Assembly (NCBI GenBank): GCA_028704015.1
Contig: JAQVLT010000001.1
Span: forward strand, 1 to 39,483
Source of the DNA: Patescibacteria group bacterium
Lineage (GTDB): Bacteria; Patescibacteriota; Patescibacteriia; Patescibacteriales; JAQVLT01
DNA: 39,483 bases
Reading direction: 5' to 3'
Numbering within the stretch: the stretch's first letter is position 1; each line of letters begins with the position of its first letter. Shown here piece by piece: positions 4,458 through 24,298 of the stretch. Under the pieces are notes generated by a model that saw only the letters and a list, made by a program, of their open reading frames with translations, made no database searches and was not told the origin of the DNA. The translations under genes were made by a program, and so were the position numbers.

Positions 4458-4580
4458 AAGCACCAAATTCCAAACTCTAAATCCTAAATAAATTCAAAAT
4501 TCAAATACCTTAAATTCAAAACCGTTTTCGATTTTAAATTTTTAATTTTGTGCTTGTTTAGGATTTAGAAATTAGTGCTT
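4458..4580. repeat. AT-rich interspersed inverted-repeat element
   Basis: The outer arms AAGCAC (4458-4463) and GTGCTT (4575-4580) enclose inner arms CTAAATCCTAAA (4477-4488) and its perfect complement (4557-4568). The interior consists of AAATTCAAA-type words. The same vocabulary (AAGCACCAAA, CTAAATCC, CAAAATTCAAA) appears inside the coding sequence of tsaD at 23771-23868, so this belongs to a dispersed family. It sits directly downstream of ruvB and may also act as its transcript end. Confidence 0.65.
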
Positions 4581-4589
4581 AGAATTTTA

Positions 4590-6150: not shown

Positions 6151-9100
6151 TTACGCCTTCCTAAACTCGCAAATATCACGGAAATCGCAATAAGCGCAAA
6201 GCGGTCCGGGCTTGGGAGAGAAATCTCCCTGCTGAATTCTGGAAATTTCTTCCCGGATATTTAATTTTAATTTTTCCACTATTTTGTCATCCGCCTCAAA
6301 GCTTACCTTGGCGGCATTATCCAAATAATAAAACGACAAACGCGAAACTTTCAGATTAAATGACTCCTCCATCACGATTTTGTAGAGGACCAACTGGCGT
6401 TTCGCGTCATAATCCAGTCTCTCTTTCGGAGCGCCGGTTTTGTAATCAATAATTTCCAAAGTGCCATCAGGCAGTTTGTCTATGCGATCAATCGCTCCTT
6501 TGAATAAATAATTCTCTATTTTATGAAGGAAATTTTTTTCCAAAAACATGATTTCAGGATAGCCGTTCGCTTCCAAATCAGCATAAAACTTTTTTAAGCT
6601 TTCTTTGCCTTTTTTATAATATTTCTCTCTTTCTGTCTTGCTGTCATACCAATCGCTTTGCCAGCTCTCATCGTAAATTTTTAACAGCCCGGCTTCGCTT
6701 AATTTTATTTTTGGCTGGCCGCCTTGAGCTTGCCCGAACAAATCAAATTGCCTTTCCGCTCCTTCGGCCAAGGGGGTTAAAAATTTTCTCAAAACATCGT
6801 GCATCACCCGACCAAAAACAAAAACGCTTTTTTGCGGCACCGGAATACGAAGAATAAAACTAAACCTATACTGCAATGGGCACTTAGCATAAGCTTCAAC
6901 CTGCGAAAAAGAAAAACGGGCGGGCAGCGCCGGCTTAATCGGCTGCTTGGATAATTTCTGCGGCAAATTTTCTAAATCTTTCAATAAATTATTGGCCGGC
7001 CGGCGAGTGCCCGGATCAACCGACAAATCTCGGGAAATAATGCCTGATTCGGCGACAAAAATTGAGGGCTTCTTTTCTTGGGCGCCGCCGCAATCGCGAG
7101 CGCTGGACAAAAACAAATATTTTTTGGCGCGCGTTAAAGCGACATAAAACAAACGCCGTTCTTCTTCCAGATGCACGTCCTTGCCCTCGGGCAATTTTTC
7201 TTTTACCAATTCGTCCGGCACGCTAATCCTCTCCGTACGATTGATAGTTGGAAATCGTTTGTCCACCAAGTCCGGCAAAAATACATAATCAAATTCCAAA
7301 CCCTTAGCGGCATGCACGGTCATAATTTTTACCACTTCGTCATCGCCAAAGTCCAAACGCAAACCGCCGGTCTCGCCCGCTTCCATTTCCATTTTCATTA
7401 ATTCCACAAAATCTTTGAGCGTCGCGCCGTCATTGGCTTCTTCAAATCTTTTTATTTTTTGATAAAACTGATTGAGATAACTGTAATATTCCACGTTCTG
7501 GTCATATTCTTTTTTATTCAACCCCGCGTCCCAGACAAATTGCACAAAAATCGCGGACGGCTTTTCCGTTTTTACCAGAGCCGAATGTTTGCGAACCAAA
7601 CTTAATAGAAAATTAACCCGCGCCACCGACTCCGCTTCAATTCCGGGAATCGCATTAATATTATAAAGCGCTTCATAAAGCGACCAAACTTTGCGCTTGG
7701 CATATTTATTGATTTCGATTATCGCTTCGTGGCCAATCTTGAACGCTTCCATGCCGAGCACGCGGAACAAAGCGCTTGATTCATGATAATTATCCAAGAG
7801 CCGGAGATAGGCCAAACAATCCAAGACAATTCCTTTGTAATACAAACCGCGTTGCGAAACAAACAAATTGGGAATATTCCGCTTGGTCAAAGCTTGCGCG
7901 TACTGATCGGCGGTGGAGTTGGAACGGACCAAGATCGCGAAATCAGACCATTTGACTTCGGAACTTTTTTTGTATTCCTTGATGATATAATCGGTTATCC
8001 AATTTATTTCCTCTTGATCGCTGGGGAAACCAAGATGTCCAACCTGTCCCGCTTCTTTTGTTTGCGATACGAGTTGCTTTTTGATTTTTAATTTTTTTTC
8101 CAAGCGGTTCGGATTATTACGCTGGATAAATTCGTAAGCCGCGTCTAAAATTTTCTGTCCTGAACGGTAATTTTTATTCAGCACAATTTCTTTGGCGCCG
8201 GGAAAATCATCCTTAAATTGCATGATATTGGAAAGCGAAGCGCCGCGAAATTTATATATTGATTGGTCATCGTCTCCCACGACCAATAAATTCTGACTTT
8301 TTTTGGCTAAAATTTTTAAAAGCTCATATTGCGCCCAATTGGTATCCTGAAATTCATCCACCATGATGTATTTAAATTTTTCTTGATAAAATTTCAAGAT
8401 ACTCGGACGCTCGCGAAAAAGGCGCAAAGTCTGGCAGATTAAATCGCCAAAGTCCAAATAACCCTCATCCAGTAATAATTGATTATAAACATGAAAAGCG
8501 TTGGCAAGCTCATTGATTCTAAAAACTTCATCGTCGGAAATATCCGAGCTGTTAGCTTTGAGCTTTAAGCTTTGAGACTTTTCCAAAAATTGAAATTTAG
8601 AATTTAAAATTTGTTTATTATTTAGAATTTTGGATTTGACGCTTTTTCCCGCGCCGGAAAGCATCGCATCTTGGTTCTCGCGCAAACCGTTTGCATATTC
8701 CAGATAATCAGCCGGCGCGATGTCCTCGTCTTTCAGCCGAGAAAAATGCTTTATCAAATCAAAAATAAATTTATTCGGATTACCTAGCGGCCGATAATAA
8801 TCCAAATCAAATTTATCCAAATTCTTTTTGATCAAAATCCACTGGTCGGTTTCGGTTAGAAGTTTGAAGCCGGGATCCAGCCCGATATCTAGGGCATGCG
8901 CGCGCAACAGCCGCTCGCAAAATTTGTGAAATGTATTAATCCAATAATCAAAAGCGCCGTAAGGCAAAAGTTTTAAAGCGCGATCTTCCATTTCTTCCGT
9001 CGCTTTTTCCGTAAACGTTAATAATAAAATTTCATCCAAAGCGGCTAAATTATTTTGAAGCAAATTTTCCAGTCTGCCGATTAAAGCCGTGGTTTTTCCC

Positions 9101-9201
9101 GTGCCGGCTCCGGCCACGATTAAAAGCGGCCCGTCTTGATGCGTGGCGGCAGCGAGCTGTTCTTTGTTTAAGTTTTTCATTAAATCGTTGGACATATTCA
9201 T
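6151..9201 (-). CDS. UvrD/PcrA-type superfamily 1 helicase with C-terminal RecB-like nuclease
   Basis: About 1016 residues. The helicase part has Walker A GAGTGKTT at 31-38, VDEFQDTNW (motif II), GDDDQSIYKFRGA (motif III), MTVHAAKGLEFD (motif V) and FYVALTRAKKYLFL (motif VI). The last 230 residues form a PD-(D/E)XK nuclease of the AddB/RecB type: GRVMHDVL, FKGAIDRID and EIIDYKTG. One cysteine in AKCPLQYRF plus the CAYCDFRDIC tail match the four-cysteine iron-sulfur arrangement of AddB/Cas4-like nucleases. Such fusions process double-strand breaks. The frame stays open upstream to 9339, but that extension is translated repeat DNA (see 9205-9337), so ATG 9201 is preferred, with 9195 as alternative. 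A segment at about 8545-8650 encoding a Lys/Ser/Leu-rich stretch between helicase motifs is also repeat-like. Confidence 0.95.
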   Translation of the reverse strand: MNMSNDLMKNLNKEQLAAATHQDGPLLIVAGAGTGKTTALIGRLENLLQNNLAALDEILLLTFTEKATEEMEDRALKLLPYGAFDYWINTFHKFCERLLRAHALDIGLDPGFKLLTETDQWILIKKNLDKFDLDYYRPLGNPNKFIFDLIKHFSRLKDEDIAPADYLEYANGLRENQDAMLSGAGKSVKSKILNNKQILNSKFQFLEKSQSLKLKANSSDISDDEVFRINELANAFHVYNQLLLDEGYLDFGDLICQTLRLFRERPSILKFYQEKFKYIMVDEFQDTNWAQYELLKILAKKSQNLLVVGDDDQSIYKFRGASLSNIMQFKDDFPGAKEIVLNKNYRSGQKILDAAYEFIQRNNPNRLEKKLKIKKQLVSQTKEAGQVGHLGFPSDQEEINWITDYIIKEYKKSSEVKWSDFAILVRSNSTADQYAQALTKRNIPNLFVSQRGLYYKGIVLDCLAYLRLLDNYHESSALFRVLGMEAFKIGHEAIIEINKYAKRKVWSLYEALYNINAIPGIEAESVARVNFLLSLVRKHSALVKTEKPSAIFVQFVWDAGLNKKEYDQNVEYYSYLNQFYQKIKRFEEANDGATLKDFVELMKMEMEAGETGGLRLDFGDDEVVKIMTVHAAKGLEFDYVFLPDLVDKRFPTINRTERISVPDELVKEKLPEGKDVHLEEERRLFYVALTRAKKYLFLSSARDCGGAQEKKPSIFVAESGIISRDLSVDPGTRRPANNLLKDLENLPQKLSKQPIKPALPARFSFSQVEAYAKCPLQYRFSFILRIPVPQKSVFVFGRVMHDVLRKFLTPLAEGAERQFDLFGQAQGGQPKIKLSEAGLLKIYDESWQSDWYDSKTEREKYYKKGKESLKKFYADLEANGYPEIMFLEKNFLHKIENYLFKGAIDRIDKLPDGTLEIIDYKTGAPKERLDYDAKRQLVLYKIVMEESFNLKVSRLSFYYLDNAAKVSFEADDKIVEKLKLNIREEISRIQQGDFSPKPGPLCAYCDFRDICEFRKA

Positions 9202-9204
9202 TTC

Positions 9205-9337
9205 ACACCCGACCATAAATAGTCGGGCTAAAATTTTACAAACCCCATTATTGGGGTTTTCTACGAAGAATAGCCCAATTCGTTTACGGCCATGCCTACC
9301 GCCTGCCTGTCCGATAGGCAGGGCAGGCAGGTTGGGC
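9205..9337. repeat. Composite of three hairpins with a nested CCTGCC palindrome
   Basis: Three successive inverted repeats: CCCGACCATAAATAGTCGGG, then CCCCATTATTGGGG, then GCCCAA...TTGGGC. The loop of the third hairpin holds a further palindromic unit (9302-9331, CCTGCCTG...CAGGCAGG). The same three-hairpin order recurs at 30200-30283 without the nested unit. It fills the space between the M16 peptidase gene and uvrD and reads as an open frame continuous with uvrD. Confidence 0.75.
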
Positions 9338-9343
9338 AATTTT

Positions 9344-10696: not shown

Positions 10697-12109
10697 CTAT
10701 TGTAATTCTTTAACCGTATAAAGTAAACCTAAACTCATCCAAAAAAACAACACGCCAAAATGCAAACTCCACCACCAGTGATCAAACTGAAATATGACAA
10801 GGAGCGCAATTATTATGGCAAGATAGGAATAAGCTTCAATACTTATTTCTTTTTTTAAATTAGATAGTAGATAGTAGAAAGTAGAAAGTAGAAATAATAA
10901 AAAAAATGCTAATCCAAAAATTCCAATCTCTGACCAAATTAACAAAAAAACATTGTGAGTCGGCTGATAAAGATAGAACGGCAAACCTGGTTTCTCTTGG
11001 CTTAAAGCCAAGGTATAATTGCCGATCCCCACGCCGAAGAGCCAATGCTTTTTGATAATATTTTTGGCATCGCTGAATGATTCTATCCTTTCGGTGTTTG
11101 ATTTAATCTCTAATCGCGTCTCATCTGACAATCGTGTGGAAAGCAAATCACTATAAATATTTCCGAAGATAAAAAAGACGAGCGCGCCAATTAAAATAAT
11201 TTTTAAAACCGATTTCTGCGCGAAAAAATCTTTTTTTATTATCGCGAGAATCAAAATTGCTGCCAAGCCAATCGCCAATCCCAGCCACGCCGCGCGGGAG
11301 AAGGTAAAAAAAAGCGTGGTAAATAGTAAACAGTAAATAGTAAACAGTATTAATGTCATCCTGAGTCCAGAAAACTTTCTGGACGAAGGATCTCGGCTAA
11401 TTCGATCAAGACGAGATTCTTCGCCCGCTCCGGTTGCGACCGGAGCAAGCTCAGAATGACAAAAAAGTAATAATATCGCAACCACCAATACTCCTCCCAG
11501 TATATTCGGATTATCCAATCCGCCATAAGCGCGGAGCCAGCGGCCGCCGCCAATCGTTTCAATAACCGAAGAATAGTTGGCGGCCGGATGTTCCGCCAAA
11601 CCCAACCACTTGAAAGCGAAAGTGCTTTGCGTTAAAAATTGCCAAATTCCCAAACAAGCTTGTAAAAATATTCCGGCGGTCAAACTCCAAATAAATTTCG
11701 CTTTATCATATTTGACGCTTGTTATCAGCCAGAATAATCCGACGCCTAGAAGAAACAAAATATAATGATAAACCGCTAAAATTTTATCAGGCGCAAAAAA
11801 GATGGAAATAAAAATAAATAAATCTATTCCGCCAACAATCCACCAAATTTTAGAAATTGAAAATTGTAATTTGTTTGAAAATTGAAAACCTGCCCGTCCG
11901 GTAGGCGGGTTGAAAATTGAAAATTTATACACCACAAATAACAATAATATTAAGATTAGCAATATATCCGTCCCATACAAGCTAATCGTTCCATATTCAA
12001 AATATCCCCTATTTAAAATCCCGGGTCGCAAAAACAATCTCGTTTGCCACGGCAAAAGAAAAACTAAAAGATATAAACCGTATTCAATTATTTTTTTTAA
12101 TTTATCCAT
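10697..12109 (-). CDS. O-antigen ligase-like (Wzy_C family) membrane protein
   Basis: About 470 residues with some ten to twelve hydrophobic segments. FSRAAWLGLAIGLAA and PTHNVFLLIWSEIGIFGLAF are typical of the Wzy/WaaL O-antigen polymerase-ligase family, which transfers or polymerises surface glycans; in a cell without lipopolysaccharide it more likely handles another cell-surface glycan. The frame extends to 12178, but the extra 23 residues are translated from an inverted-repeat element, so ATG 12109 (MDKLKKIIEYG) is preferred. Three repeat-derived segments are in frame: 11354-11461 (36 codons, MITE-like), 11889-11909 (CCTGCCCG-type palindrome, NPPTGRAG), and AT-rich TAAACAGTAAATAG words at 11318-11350. 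They fall in or next to loops between hydrophobic segments. Confidence 0.85.
   Translation of the reverse strand: MDKLKKIIEYGLYLLVFLLPWQTRLFLRPGILNRGYFEYGTISLYGTDILLILILLLFVVYKFSIFNPPTGRAGFQFSNKLQFSISKIWWIVGGIDLFIFISIFFAPDKILAVYHYILFLLGVGLFWLITSVKYDKAKFIWSLTAGIFLQACLGIWQFLTQSTFAFKWLGLAEHPAANYSSVIETIGGGRWLRAYGGLDNPNILGGVLVVAILLLFCHSELAPVATGAGEESRLDRISRDPSSRKFSGLRMTLILFTIYCLLFTTLFFTFSRAAWLGLAIGLAAILILAIIKKDFFAQKSVLKIILIGALVFFIFGNIYSDLLSTRLSDETRLEIKSNTERIESFSDAKNIIKKHWLFGVGIGNYTLALSQEKPGLPFYLYQPTHNVFLLIWSEIGIFGLAFFLLFLLSTFYYLLSNLKKEISIEAYSYLAIIIALLVIFQFDHWWWSLHFGVLFFWMSLGLLYTVKELQ
11354..11461. repeat. In-frame MITE-like unit inside the O-antigen-ligase-like gene
   Basis: Terminal inverted repeats TGTCATCCTGAG (11354-11365) and CTCAGAATGACA (11450-11461) bound a unit of exactly 108 nt with internal hairpins (TCCAGAAAACTTTCTGGA and CTCCGGTTGCGACCGGAG). 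On the minus strand it reads as 36 sense codons inserted between two hydrophobic segments of the host protein. A related TGTCATTCC...GGAATGACA unit occurs between genes at 22334-22466. Confidence 0.8.
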
Positions 12110-12120
12110 TATTAATATAC

Positions 12121-12276
12121 TGCGAGCATTGAAAAATTTTGGAATAATCACGAGCGTAGAAACCGTGCAAAATTCCATGTTTGAGTCCCGACGCTTCGGG
12201 ACGAGTTTGGAATTTTGCTAGGTTTCTTAGCGCCTGCCCGCCCCTGGAGGGAGTGATCCAAAATTTTTCAGCGAGC
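12121..12276. repeat. Nested inverted-repeat element
   Basis: Outer 14-bp arms TGAAAAATTTTGGA (12130-12143) and the complement at 12257-12270 are perfect. An inner pair built from AGAAACCGTGCAAAATTCCA and TGGAATTTTGCTAGGTTTCT encloses a GTCCCGA...TCGGGAC hairpin (12187-12203). The left boundary words TGCGAGCATTGAAAAATTTT recur at 36477. It covers the false upstream extension of the O-antigen-ligase-like frame. Between here and 12321 only a short AAAAAGTGG-type hairpin is seen. Confidence 0.75.
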
Positions 12277-12321: not shown

Positions 12322-13722
12322 TTAAACTAATAACAATTCTAATACTCTTTCTAACCCCGGGGTCGTTTCAAAATTTCCAATTTTTTCCGGTTTAATCCAC
12401 CTATATTCCGTATGTTCATAATCCAATTCTATTTCCGGCACTGTTTTTAACTCTACCAAACAAGGCACGGTCAACCAAGTCTTATTGATTTTGGCGTCAA
12501 AAATGCTGGCTGGCGCGCCAATCTTAAATTCAGAAATATTATCTGCGCCAATGCCGGTCTCCTCAAAAATTTCTTCCAATACTTTTTCTTTATATGGCTT
12601 AAACTCATCAAAATATCCGCCGATGCTATTCCAAATTCCTTGATAGGCGCGGACTTCGTTGCTGCGCTTAAGAAGTAAAATTTTATCTCGATGTTTTAAA
12701 AAACAATTCAGCACGGTGGCATTGTCTGAATTAGAATAATCAATCCGACCGTCCGGAAATTTTGGCAGTTGCTTATAATGTTTAACTAAAGACAAGTTAA
12801 CATTATATAAATTGCGATATTCCTCTCGCCTGTCTTTTTCATGAAATTTTAAAATCGTATCGGAAATCACTACTCGCGAATCATTAAACTTGGCAACGCT
12901 GGAAATATTCTTTTGCATTTTTTTCTCTTGAATTTTTTTAAACAATGCTTCCAAAAAATTTCCAATTCGTCCTTGCCACCAAAAATTCTTTATTTTTTTA
13001 AAAACGAGTGAGAAATTATTATCTTTCACCAACCGATGATTATTTGTAATAAATAACGTAGAATTTGGCAAAAATTTTTTTAACCATTCATTCGCTTGCC
13101 AAAATTTTTGGTAATACTCCTCACCGTAAATTGGCATTAAAATTGCCAGCCAATAATAAAAATAGGGGTCGGGCGTTAAAGCTAATTTCTCCAAATTCAT
13201 TTCCTCTTCGCTCGCATAAAAACTTAAACAAATTCTATTGGCAATTTTTCCGCCATGACGCCACTTGCCCATGAGCCAAACCGTGATAGTAACCAAAAAT
13301 CTAGTGAGCCATAGGCGTTTAGCAGAAGTGATAATAAAAAGATCAATATCACTTTCCGGTCTGTAATAAAAATTATTGCAAACCGCGACCATTTTTATGC
13401 CATTAATATATTTTAATTTTTTAGCGACCTGTTCAGCGATTTTATATTTTTCATTGGCTAAATTGTATTGTTTAATTCTAGTTTCCACAATCTTCTCTCG
13501 TCCGGGAAGAAAATAAAAACCATTTAGCGTCCCGAAGCCTTCCGAAGGCTTCGGGACGCTTTTTGCAGCCTCAAAAATATCTAAAACTTCTCCCAACTCA
13601 CACTTCACATCAATAAATTTCCAAATCTCCAAAGGCGTCAAAGGATAATTAAATAAATCAAAGAAAGCAATTGCGCGAACAATTGCTTCTTGTAAATTTT
13701 TGTTTTCAATTTCGGAATTCAT
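12322..13722 (-). CDS. Nucleotidyltransferase-Nudix fusion protein
   Basis: 466 residues in two parts. The N-terminal part (about 1-270) starts with a winged-helix-like stretch (RAIAFFDLFNYPLTPLEIW) and carries the polymerase-beta-type nucleotidyltransferase signature PESDIDLFIIT. The C-terminal 130 residues are a Nudix hydrolase fold: KILLLKRSNEVRAYQGIWNS followed by a Nudix box GYFDEFKPYKEKVLEEIFEE. The acidic metal-binding EExxEE core is kept, but the usual Glu before it is Lys and the usual Arg is Glu. The reaction and substrate are unknown. A 35-nt palindrome (13526-13560) is read in frame as SVPKPSEGFGT. Even without the fusion each domain is recognisable, so the call is firm at domain level and open at function level. 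Confidence 0.85.
   Translation of the reverse strand: MNSEIENKNLQEAIVRAIAFFDLFNYPLTPLEIWKFIDVKCELGEVLDIFEAAKSVPKPSEGFGTLNGFYFLPGREKIVETRIKQYNLANEKYKIAEQVAKKLKYINGIKMVAVCNNFYYRPESDIDLFIITSAKRLWLTRFLVTITVWLMGKWRHGGKIANRICLSFYASEEEMNLEKLALTPDPYFYYWLAILMPIYGEEYYQKFWQANEWLKKFLPNSTLFITNNHRLVKDNNFSLVFKKIKNFWWQGRIGNFLEALFKKIQEKKMQKNISSVAKFNDSRVVISDTILKFHEKDRREEYRNLYNVNLSLVKHYKQLPKFPDGRIDYSNSDNATVLNCFLKHRDKILLLKRSNEVRAYQGIWNSIGGYFDEFKPYKEKVLEEIFEETGIGADNISEFKIGAPASIFDAKINKTWLTVPCLVELKTVPEIELDYEHTEYRWIKPEKIGNFETTPGLERVLELLLV
13526..13560. repeat. In-frame 35-nt perfect palindrome
   Basis: Arms of 17 bp (AGCGTCCCGAAGCCTTC and its complement) around a single central base. It is read in frame in the N-terminal region of the nucleotidyltransferase-Nudix gene. 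A short relative (GTCCCGA, TCGGGAC) is at 12187-12203 between genes. Confidence 0.9.
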
Positions 13723-17482: not shown

Positions 17483-17512
17483 ATGAAGGCGGACAAAAAT
17501 TTGTCCGCCTTC
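17483..17512. terminator. Hairpin downstream of rny
   Basis: Arms GAAGGCGGACAAA and the perfect complement with a 2-nt loop, placed 33 nt beyond the rny stop on the minus strand. The T-rich tract on that strand begins only after some 15 nt, so termination is likely but not textbook. Confidence 0.55.
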
Positions 17513-23017: not shown

Positions 23018-23086
23018 CATTTTACATCTATATTATTTTATGTTTAAATAATGATACGCAATAAAAAATTAAAATTATTTATTATT

Positions 23087-24298
23087 ATGATAATACTAGG
23101 CATTGAAACAAGTTGCGATGAAACCGCGGCGTCGGTGATTGAGGGAAAAGGCGACCACGTGGAAATATTGTCAAATGTCGTTTCTTCGCAAATTGAAATA
23201 CATAAAAAATACGGCGGCGTCGTTCCGGAAGTGGCCGCGCGTGAGCATGTTTTGAATATCTTGCCGGTTATCAATGAAGCTTTGGAAAAAACTGACCTCT
23301 CTCCCCAGCCCCCTCTCCTAATTAAGAGAGGGGTGGCGAGCCGCGCAAGCCGGGGAGAGGTAGACGCAATCGCCGTCACCACCGGGCCTGGTCTCATTAC
23401 CTCCCTAATCGTCGGCGTGGAAACAGCCAAAACTTTGGCTTGCGCTTGGAATATTCCCTTAATCAGCATTAATCACATTGAAGGACACATATACGCCAAT
23501 TTCATTGGCGAAAATTCCAAATTACAAATTCCAAATTACAAACAAATCTCAAATTCCAAAATCCAAAATCCAAAAGTTAAATTTCCTGTTCTAATTTTAA
23601 CCGTGTCGGGTGGACATAATTTGTTAGTCTTGATGACCGGCCATGGCAAATATAAAATTATTGGCGAGACTCTTGATGACGCGGCCGGTGAAGCATTTGA
23701 TAAAGCCGCACAAATCCTCGGCCTCGGTTATCCCGGAGGACCGGCTATTTCAGCTGCGGCTGAAAAATTCCAAGCACCAAACACTAAATCCCAAACAAAT
23801 CTCAAAATTCAAAATTCAAATTCCAAAAATAAATCTAAAATCTTAAATCTAAAATCTGAAATTTCCCTCCCTCGCCCCATGTTTGATTCAAAAAATTATG
23901 ATTTTTCATTTTCCGGATTAAAAACCGCCTTGCTATACAAAGTTAAGCAAGATCCAAACTATAAAAAAAGAATAAACGAATATGCTCACGAATTCCAGCA
24001 AGCCGCGATTGATGTTTTGATTTCTAAGACTATAAAAGCCGCCAAAGAATATAAAGTTAAAACCATAATGCTCTCAGGCGGCGTCTCGGCAAACAAAGAA
24101 TTACGAATTCAAATGGAAAACGCCATTAAAGAAAAATTACCAACCGCAAACTACCATCTGCCGAACTTAAATTATACAACCGACAATGCCGCAATGATTG
24201 CCACAGCCGGATATTTCAAATTTAGAAGGCAAAAAAACGTTTTTTTGCCTTCATCGTGGAATAAAATTCAAGCTGACTGCAACCAAAAATTAAAATAA
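23087..24298 (+). CDS. tsaD: tRNA N6-adenosine threonylcarbamoyltransferase TsaD with repeat-derived insertions
   Basis: Transfers the threonylcarbamoyl group to A37 of ANN-reading tRNAs with TsaB/TsaE. Family hallmarks: MIILGIETSCDETAASV at the N-terminus, the metal motif HIEGH at 130-134, VSGGHN near 173, YPGGPA near 215, FSFSGLKTA near 273 and TDNAAMIA near 365. ATG 23087 gives the canonical N-terminus; a longer frame from 23051 adds 12 atypical residues. Length is 403 versus about 335-345 normally. The excess is accounted for by in-frame repeat-like segments at about residues 70-91 (CTCTCCCC hairpin unit), 142-163 and 228-260 (Asn/Lys/Ser-rich AAATTCCAAA words). A 28-bp palindrome lies near the C-terminus. 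All catalytic motifs survive. Confidence 0.96.
   Translation: MIILGIETSCDETAASVIEGKGDHVEILSNVVSSQIEIHKKYGGVVPEVAAREHVLNILPVINEALEKTDLSPQPPLLIKRGVASRASRGEVDAIAVTTGPGLITSLIVGVETAKTLACAWNIPLISINHIEGHIYANFIGENSKLQIPNYKQISNSKIQNPKVKFPVLILTVSGGHNLLVLMTGHGKYKIIGETLDDAAGEAFDKAAQILGLGYPGGPAISAAAEKFQAPNTKSQTNLKIQNSNSKNKSKILNLKSEISLPRPMFDSKNYDFSFSGLKTALLYKVKQDPNYKKRINEYAHEFQQAAIDVLISKTIKAAKEYKVKTIMLSGGVSANKELRIQMENAIKEKLPTANYHLPNLNYTTDNAAMIATAGYFKFRRQKNVFLPSSWNKIQADCNQKLK
23296..23360. repeat. In-frame hairpin unit 1 in tsaD
   Basis: Outer arms CCTCTCTCCCC and GGGGAGAGG, inner arms CCCTCTC and GAGAGGG around CTAATTAA. Translated as an insertion between the ALEK helix and DAIAVTTGPGL of TsaD. Confidence 0.8.
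23515..23580. repeat. In-frame AT-rich repeat 2 in tsaD
   Basis: Repeated words of the type AAATTCCAAATTACAAA and CCAAAATCCAAAATCC, encoding a Ser/Asn/Lys/Gln-rich loop just before the VLILTVSGGHN strand. Same vocabulary as intergenic DNA at 4458-4580. Confidence 0.65.
23771..23868. repeat. In-frame AT-rich repeat 3 in tsaD
   Basis: CAAGCACCAAACACTAAATC followed by CAAAATTCAAAATTCAAATT words; encodes about 32 Asn/Lys/Ser-rich residues between YPGGPA and LPRPMFD. Matches the vocabulary of the intergenic element at 4458-4580. Confidence 0.7.
24225..24252. repeat. In-frame 28-bp perfect palindrome 4 in tsaD
   Basis: GAAGGCAAAAAAAC and its exact complement without loop. Read as RRQKNVFLPS in the C-terminal region. 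Confidence 0.85.

Follow-up and report, generated by a model that had tools for sequence, protein, structure and literature searches.

Identification of tsaD and Its Additional Segments

The window, i.e., the whole stretch of 39,483 nucleotides that was analysed, belongs to a Falkowbacteria-like Patescibacteria genome (1.08 Mb, a fragmented assembly of 27 contigs) of a very small, uncultured bacterium and contains tsaD, the gene of an essential subunit of the tRNA t6A transferase. Four in-frame, repeat-derived segments, A to D, were found within TsaD, and they are of three repeat kinds: A is a palindromic element with dispersed copies, B and C are heptanucleotide arrays prone to slippage, and D is a REP-like palindrome. 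The features are as follows:

23087–24298, + strand: tsaD (NCBIfam TIGR03723; PDB sequence and fold matches)
23295–23361, + strand: segment A, 67-bp dispersed palindromic element (genome-wide copies; gap in relatives and in PDB TsaD)
23310–23333, unstranded: core palindrome of A, 24 bp, CCCCTCTCCTAATTAAGAGAGGGG (pattern search in the same genome)
23494–23510, + strand: fold-back at site B, CGCCAAT-TTC-ATTGGCG (arm-swap and synonymous-codon tests)
23511–23578, + strand: segment B, degenerate heptanucleotide array of the CAAATTC type, read as NSKLQIPNYKQISNSKIQNPK (period-7 test; order comparison)
23748–23765, + strand: fold-back at site C, TTTCAGC-TGCG-GCTGAAA (stem test and wobble-position covariation)
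23764–23866, + strand: segment C, degenerate heptanucleotide array, read as KFQAPNTKSQTNLKIQNSNSKNKSKILNLKSEIS (period-7 test; related places in the genome)
24225–24252, unstranded: segment D, perfect 28-bp palindrome of a GAAGGC-type family, near the C-terminus (six-copy family with covarying arms)
4458–4588, unstranded: inverted pair of heptanucleotide arrays between genes, akin to B and C (repeat comparison in the window)
17485–17512, unstranded: non-coding D-family palindrome copy beside rny (degenerate pattern search)

The open reading frame of tsaD opens at 23051 and ends at 24298, with the likely start at 23087. Its product scored 359 bits against TIGR03723 (cut-off 296), and the gene was present in one copy in the genome. 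Measured from the GIETSC motif, TsaD had 402 aa versus about 340–350 aa in the insert-free members of the order, in agreement with the original prediction that the protein is about 60 residues too long. The best PDB match was the TsaD of T. maritima (6N9A), and the alignment gaps fell exactly at A, B, and C, the three stretches that had been named, with a small gap also at D. The top Foldseek match was S. typhimurium YgjD (3ZET), with a TM-score of 0.84 by target. The motif residues, which occupy invariant alignment columns, were all intact, as had been claimed for the catalytic motifs.

An AlphaFold model was obtained from an alignment of six sequences (the protein from the window plus five homologues from IMG/VR), which superseded a single-sequence model with a pLDDT of 36. 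The mean pLDDT was 72.9 and the pTM was 0.73. Values below 50 were confined to residues 102–105 and to four stretches that correspond to segments A (72–91), B (144–163), and C (232–255) and to the D-bearing C-terminal end (386–404). The inserts are predicted to connect well-formed helices and strands, which is consistent with a position in loops.

Dispersed Palindromic Element of Segment A

Segment A has the ends ACCTC...GAGGT and the peptide LSPQPPLLIKRGVASRASRGEV; the start of 23296 given in the original prediction was one base off the element end. The core in TsaD had one mismatch to the family core CCCCTCTCCTAATTAGGAGAGGGG. When at most three mismatches were allowed, 14 sites of this core were found in the 1.08-Mb genome, compared with none for a reversed control pattern. 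The core was unchanged at eight sites, and these together with the TsaD copy made nine AATT-centred copies, all of them in frame within genes in the phase PLLI(R/K)RG. The PLLIRRG phase is the only open one, as both of the others are interrupted by TAA or TAG. Curated models identified the hosts Tgt, MnmA, [FeFe] hydrogenase, ValRS, LigA, ExoIII, and TsaD, and two further hosts, a glycosyltransferase-like and a CapA-like protein, were recognized by motif evidence only. A tenth gene, dusB, carried a copy with a different centre in a different phase.

Outside genes, 4 of the 14 core copies were found in this genome. None of them was among the nine of the AATT type, whereas tolerance alone predicts many outside. 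The segments had been matched to the intergenic repeats of the window, but this did not hold for A, which had no other copy in the window and whose copies elsewhere in the genome were mostly inside genes. A search of about 85,000 species found the exact core in 25 stretches, nearly all from Candidatus Falkowbacteria, Kuenenbacteria, or other Patescibacteria, besides one from Armatimonadetes and one from a further bacterium. About half of these 25 copies were outside genes. Nine kept the PLLIRRG phase in genes supported by Pfam: RsmA had two of them, at different positions, an MnmA-like protein had two at one shared position, and RecG, HlyD, MurG, LigA, and UvrB had one each. Counting all centres, only 7 of 111 genomes of the order carried the core, and its distribution is therefore patchy.

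No transposase attributable to A was found next to any A copy, and none carrying A was found in the four genomes rich in A copies. Y1_Tnp genes were present, but none had the A core inside its own reading frame. Inspection by eye showed no target duplication.

Two of the host genes had further peculiarities. The ValRS reading frame (L006:1039-3060, − strand) had, in addition to the PLLIRRG insert, an apparent histidine-phosphatase-like domain, as read from the sequence, between RQIWWGHRILVW and the QDPDTLDTWFSS motif. MnmA (L003:1033-2262, − strand) had two different inserts, the PLLIRRG element and one reading APCPSPCLAGRQASQARGAKKEQG.

Heptanucleotide Arrays of Segments B and C

The period-7 identity was 0.76 for B and 0.67 for C, compared with 0.38 and 0.37, respectively, in dinucleotide shuffles, none of which was as high in 500 trials for either segment. 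These values, together with the count for the core of A, bear out the claim that the segments are repeats and not chance sequence. Both B and C proved to be tandem 7-bp arrays with a neighbouring fold-back rather than the hairpins or palindromes as which they had been read. About 30 places related to C were found in the genome. With a strict filter, 21 heptamer arrays were detected in a 299-kb sample of the genome and none in a Markov control, and 13 of the 21 were outside genes, though the gene coverage of the sample was 86%. The proposed match to the intergenic vocabulary of the window stood for B and C, by the arrays at 4458–4588, and for D, by the copy at 17485–17512.

The heptamer unit shifts through every reading frame in turn, and CAAATTC-like units are stop-free in each. 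Thirteen of 27 heptamer inserts in TsaD were stop-free in all three forward frames, versus none of 66 strand-readings of non-coding arrays, in a comparison of order-wide TsaDs, uncorrected for kinship, with the arrays of one genome.

Heptanucleotide arrays were also present inside other reading frames of the window, namely at 8542-8640 within ORF 6151-9339 (a UvrD/AddA-like helicase with a Cas4-like end) and at 10846-10909 and 11313-11355 within ORF 10697-12178. Intergenic arrays often formed inverted pairs around a short spacer (L139:18922-19028, L139:19117-19221, and L145:3925-4029), and several such pairs adjoined tRNA genes.

Fold-Back Hairpins Beside B and C

The upstream arm of the fold-back at B is conserved YAN coding DNA, and the fold-back at C is inside conserved ISAAAEK codons. 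In many insert-bearing TsaDs, the conserved YAN(F/W) codons were followed by their own reverse complement directly before B. The arm pairs at B were CGCCAAT/ATTGGCG, CGCGAAT/ATTCGCG, and TACGCTAAC/GTTAGCGTA, among others, with lengths of up to 17 bp. Stems of at least 7 at B numbered 14 of 65, versus a mean of 8.4 and a maximum of 13 when the downstream halves were swapped between species (500 swaps). At C, in a fixed register, 5.4 of 8 pairs were formed in insert-bearing TsaDs, compared with 3.2 in the others and 1.3–2.6 when the register was slid. The paired wobble positions at C held different base pairs, and the arms at both sites covaried via synonymous codons; synonymous randomization reached the observed stems in 0 of 300 trials at each site.

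This covariation argues for the hairpins being selected RNA or DNA structures (pausing or mRNA stability), with the arrays as unstructured accompanying spacers. Such an explanation is nevertheless improbable. The idea that heptamer arrays generally lie beside hairpins was rejected, as 96 arrays across the genome showed no hairpin excess on either side. Furthermore, perfect palindromes with a stem of at least 9 in the coding DNA here numbered 44, versus 17 by synonymous shuffling, and this general excess could be explained by template-switch conversion without any function. In addition, the ancestry-corrected test of the link between hairpin and insert was not significant, with too few independent pairs. 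Because of these three results, the fold-backs were taken as probably reflecting template switching that converts palindromes, rather than a function.

Elsewhere in the window, a perfect 35-bp interrupted palindrome, AGCGTCCCGAAGCCTTCGGAAGGCTTCGGGACGCT, was observed at 13526-13560 (− strand), in frame within ORF 12322-13722.

Segment D and Y1 Transposase Genes

A near-exact search for segment D found only D itself, as for a one-off palindrome, and this was then overturned by the degenerate pattern GAAGGCNNNNAAACGTTTNNNNGCCTTC. The pattern was found at six places in all, and every one was a perfect or near-perfect palindrome despite up to four differing positions per arm. The fourth palindrome that had been proposed therefore stood as a member of a six-copy family, but it added just about 4 aa to TsaD and had no near-identical copy. 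Two copies of the family, at C11:9374 and 9766, were just upstream of and inside an IS200-like (Y1_Tnp) reading frame with a PF01797 match at C11:9484. Counted genome-wide, the repeats of A, C, and D were recurrent, as the original prediction implied.

Y1 transposase-domain genes with their own perfect in-frame palindromes of 21–37 bp were also observed in this genome (L234, L235, L236, and L238). The same pattern was present in the genome G028 (L274, L277, and L278), and the palindromes were often just before the FIxYCLNPNHYH motif.

Recurrence of Inserts Across the Order

About 90 TsaDs of the order were compared. At least 6 extra aa were present at A, B, and C in 27, 29, and 22 of them, respectively, with unbroken frames. 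Inserts of at least 4 aa occurred in 24, 32, and 22 genomes at the three positions, versus 1–4 anywhere else. One site held different classes among species, including palindromes, GTAG-type repeats, heptamers, and others. At site A, these were CCCCTCTCC palindromes, GTAG-type palindromes (L051 and L058), heptamers (L061), and a GGGATTGCC..GCAATGACA repeat (L056). A tree built from the core columns required at least 16, 13, and 17 changes of insert state at A, B, and C, respectively.

Close relatives also differed. The long A insert of L056 was absent from L069 and L114 (core identity 88%), and the latter two, with 93% core identity, differed at C by exactly 21 bp, i.e., three heptamers. L054, L055, and L092 (about 86% core identity) differed at all three sites. 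In general, near species with 85–93% identical cores differed in insert sequence, length, and class, and some had no inserts. Site by site, species of the same genus or nearby thus differed in whether an insert was present and in its class, in agreement with the claim that the segments were inserted rather than slowly evolved. The inserts had been expected to be strain-specific, and this was true of their sequences but not of their sites. The sites are insertion hot spots throughout the order, and other orders of the class also had repeat-type inserts at these TsaD positions (L245, L250, L246, and L262). Segments conserved in both sequence and site, the finding that would have spoken against insertion, were not what the comparison gave: the sites recurred and the sequences differed. 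In LigA, 12 of 31 proteins had varied repeat-type inserts after residue 119, where both this genome and L169 have the PLLIRRG copy, and two more sites were recurrent.

The recurrence at three sites in many species might indicate that the extra loops are functional TsaD extensions under selection, for instance for contacts with a partner or tRNA, and that the low-complexity DNA is incidental. This is quite unlikely, since sequence, length, and class varied between species with nearly identical cores, some near relatives lacked the loops, the same repeats occurred in unrelated proteins, and the model confidence there was very low. It is even less likely that splicing, translational bypass, or protein splicing causes the inserts to be left out of the mature protein. 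The fold-backs directly 5′ of B and C are possible boundary marks for such removal, but all inserts were in frame and stop-free, which would be needless if they were excised, and the coding heptamer arrays were the stop-poor subset. Moreover, in an Rfam scan of the whole window, a tRNA was the sole match and no intron family was matched. An assembly error or a decaying pseudogene is hardly credible despite the fragmented assembly, as the motif residues were intact, tsaD was single-copy, and the same pattern was present in dozens of independent genomes.

Proposed Origin and Implications

Accumulation of genomic repeats in TsaD by recurrent insertion or growth, with selection keeping the in-frame, stop-free copies in permissive loops, is very probably the explanation of the four segments. 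The repeats may arrive by transposition-like insertion of hairpin DNA (D and perhaps A), and B and C would grow by template switching at fold-backs together with slippage. Purifying selection on the essential enzyme would then retain the frame-preserving, stop-free events located in loops that connect folded elements, and unrelated repeats would refill the same small set of loops in TsaD and in LigA, lineage after lineage. If so, translation of the segments would yield disordered loops at the protein surface that have hardly any function or none, and the inserts would be close to neutral.

A wider generalization was considered tentatively: palindromic elements, IS200-type REPs, and heptanucleotide arrays might cycle continually into the same core-protein loops across the class, with coding palindromes kept perfect by template-switch conversion, A preferring coding DNA, and core proteins being a main reservoir of selfish DNA. 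This is possible but rather doubtful.

Protein-coding palindromes have so far been a speciality of Rickettsia, Wolbachia, and intragenic REPs. They are now found in a remote phylum with reduced genomes, where one essential enzyme holds repeats of three mechanistically distinct types, and related bacteria appear to keep absorbing repeats into core proteins. About 100 related genomes have different inserts in the same loops, and the order is therefore a natural experiment on the insertion tolerance of essential enzymes, on the turnover of selfish DNA in genes, and on RAYT-like versus template-switching drive. In Patescibacteria protein families, non-homologous repeat-derived segments will mislead alignments and structure predictions.

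Comparison with Known Repeat Systems

A literature search on repeats inside Patescibacteria genes found nothing relevant. The cyanobacterial STRR repeats are tandem 7-bp units with many sequence versions and are mostly intergenic. Segments B and C also consist of tandem 7-bp units, whereas the arrays here are read within essential protein genes as well.

Coding palindromes were reported in nematomorph mitochondria as perfect inverted repeats, whose arms stay perfect while the codons change, and template switching was proposed (PMC6649704). Compared with the fold-backs here, they are longer, are in mitochondrial genes, and have no tie to inserted repeats.

According to the excerpt of PMC3733652, GTAG/CGTC REPs with RAYT transposases are short palindromes inside repair, replication, tRNA-synthetase, and tRNA-modification genes, and recB of two Xanthomonas species has a REP at about the same site. 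On that account, the functional classes of the genes (repair and tRNA metabolism) are the same as here. Furthermore, the inserts of L051 and L058 have GTAG-type ends, and copies of the D family flank and enter a Y1 (IS200-like) transposase gene. However, the ends of A are ACCTC/GAGGT, with no GTAG or CGTC tag and no cognate transposase found, and the reuse of one loop by different repeat families across an order is not described in that excerpt.

The Rickettsia palindromic elements (RPEs; Ogata 2000, 2002; reviewed in PMC2229807 and PMC10969869) are dispersed palindromes of 105–146 bp, in frame within many unrelated conserved genes. They are also found outside genes, and they have one conserved reading frame and a short peptide (PMC2229807, PMC10969869). 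Similarly, A is palindromic with terminal inverted repeats (the 24-bp core within ACCTC..GAGGT), is in frame in nine unrelated conserved genes in one fixed phase (PLLIRRG), and has copies outside genes too. The originally proposed resemblance to RPEs was thus strong for A, a palindrome with one open frame whose hosts are many unrelated conserved genes. It was partial for D and wrong for B and C. In contrast to the RPEs, A is 67 bp long in TsaD and similar elsewhere (about 60–75 bp), and its sequence and phylum are different; the search among about 85,000 species, for the exact core only, gave no Rickettsia record. Because the length, sequence, and host group of the RPEs and the ends of the REPs did not fit, A was assigned to neither. 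Moreover, unlike the RPEs, several unrelated repeat classes are held here by one host protein, at sites that recur over an order. New compared with the known systems are the phylum, the co-occurrence of several repeat kinds in a single enzyme, and the order-wide reuse of loops.
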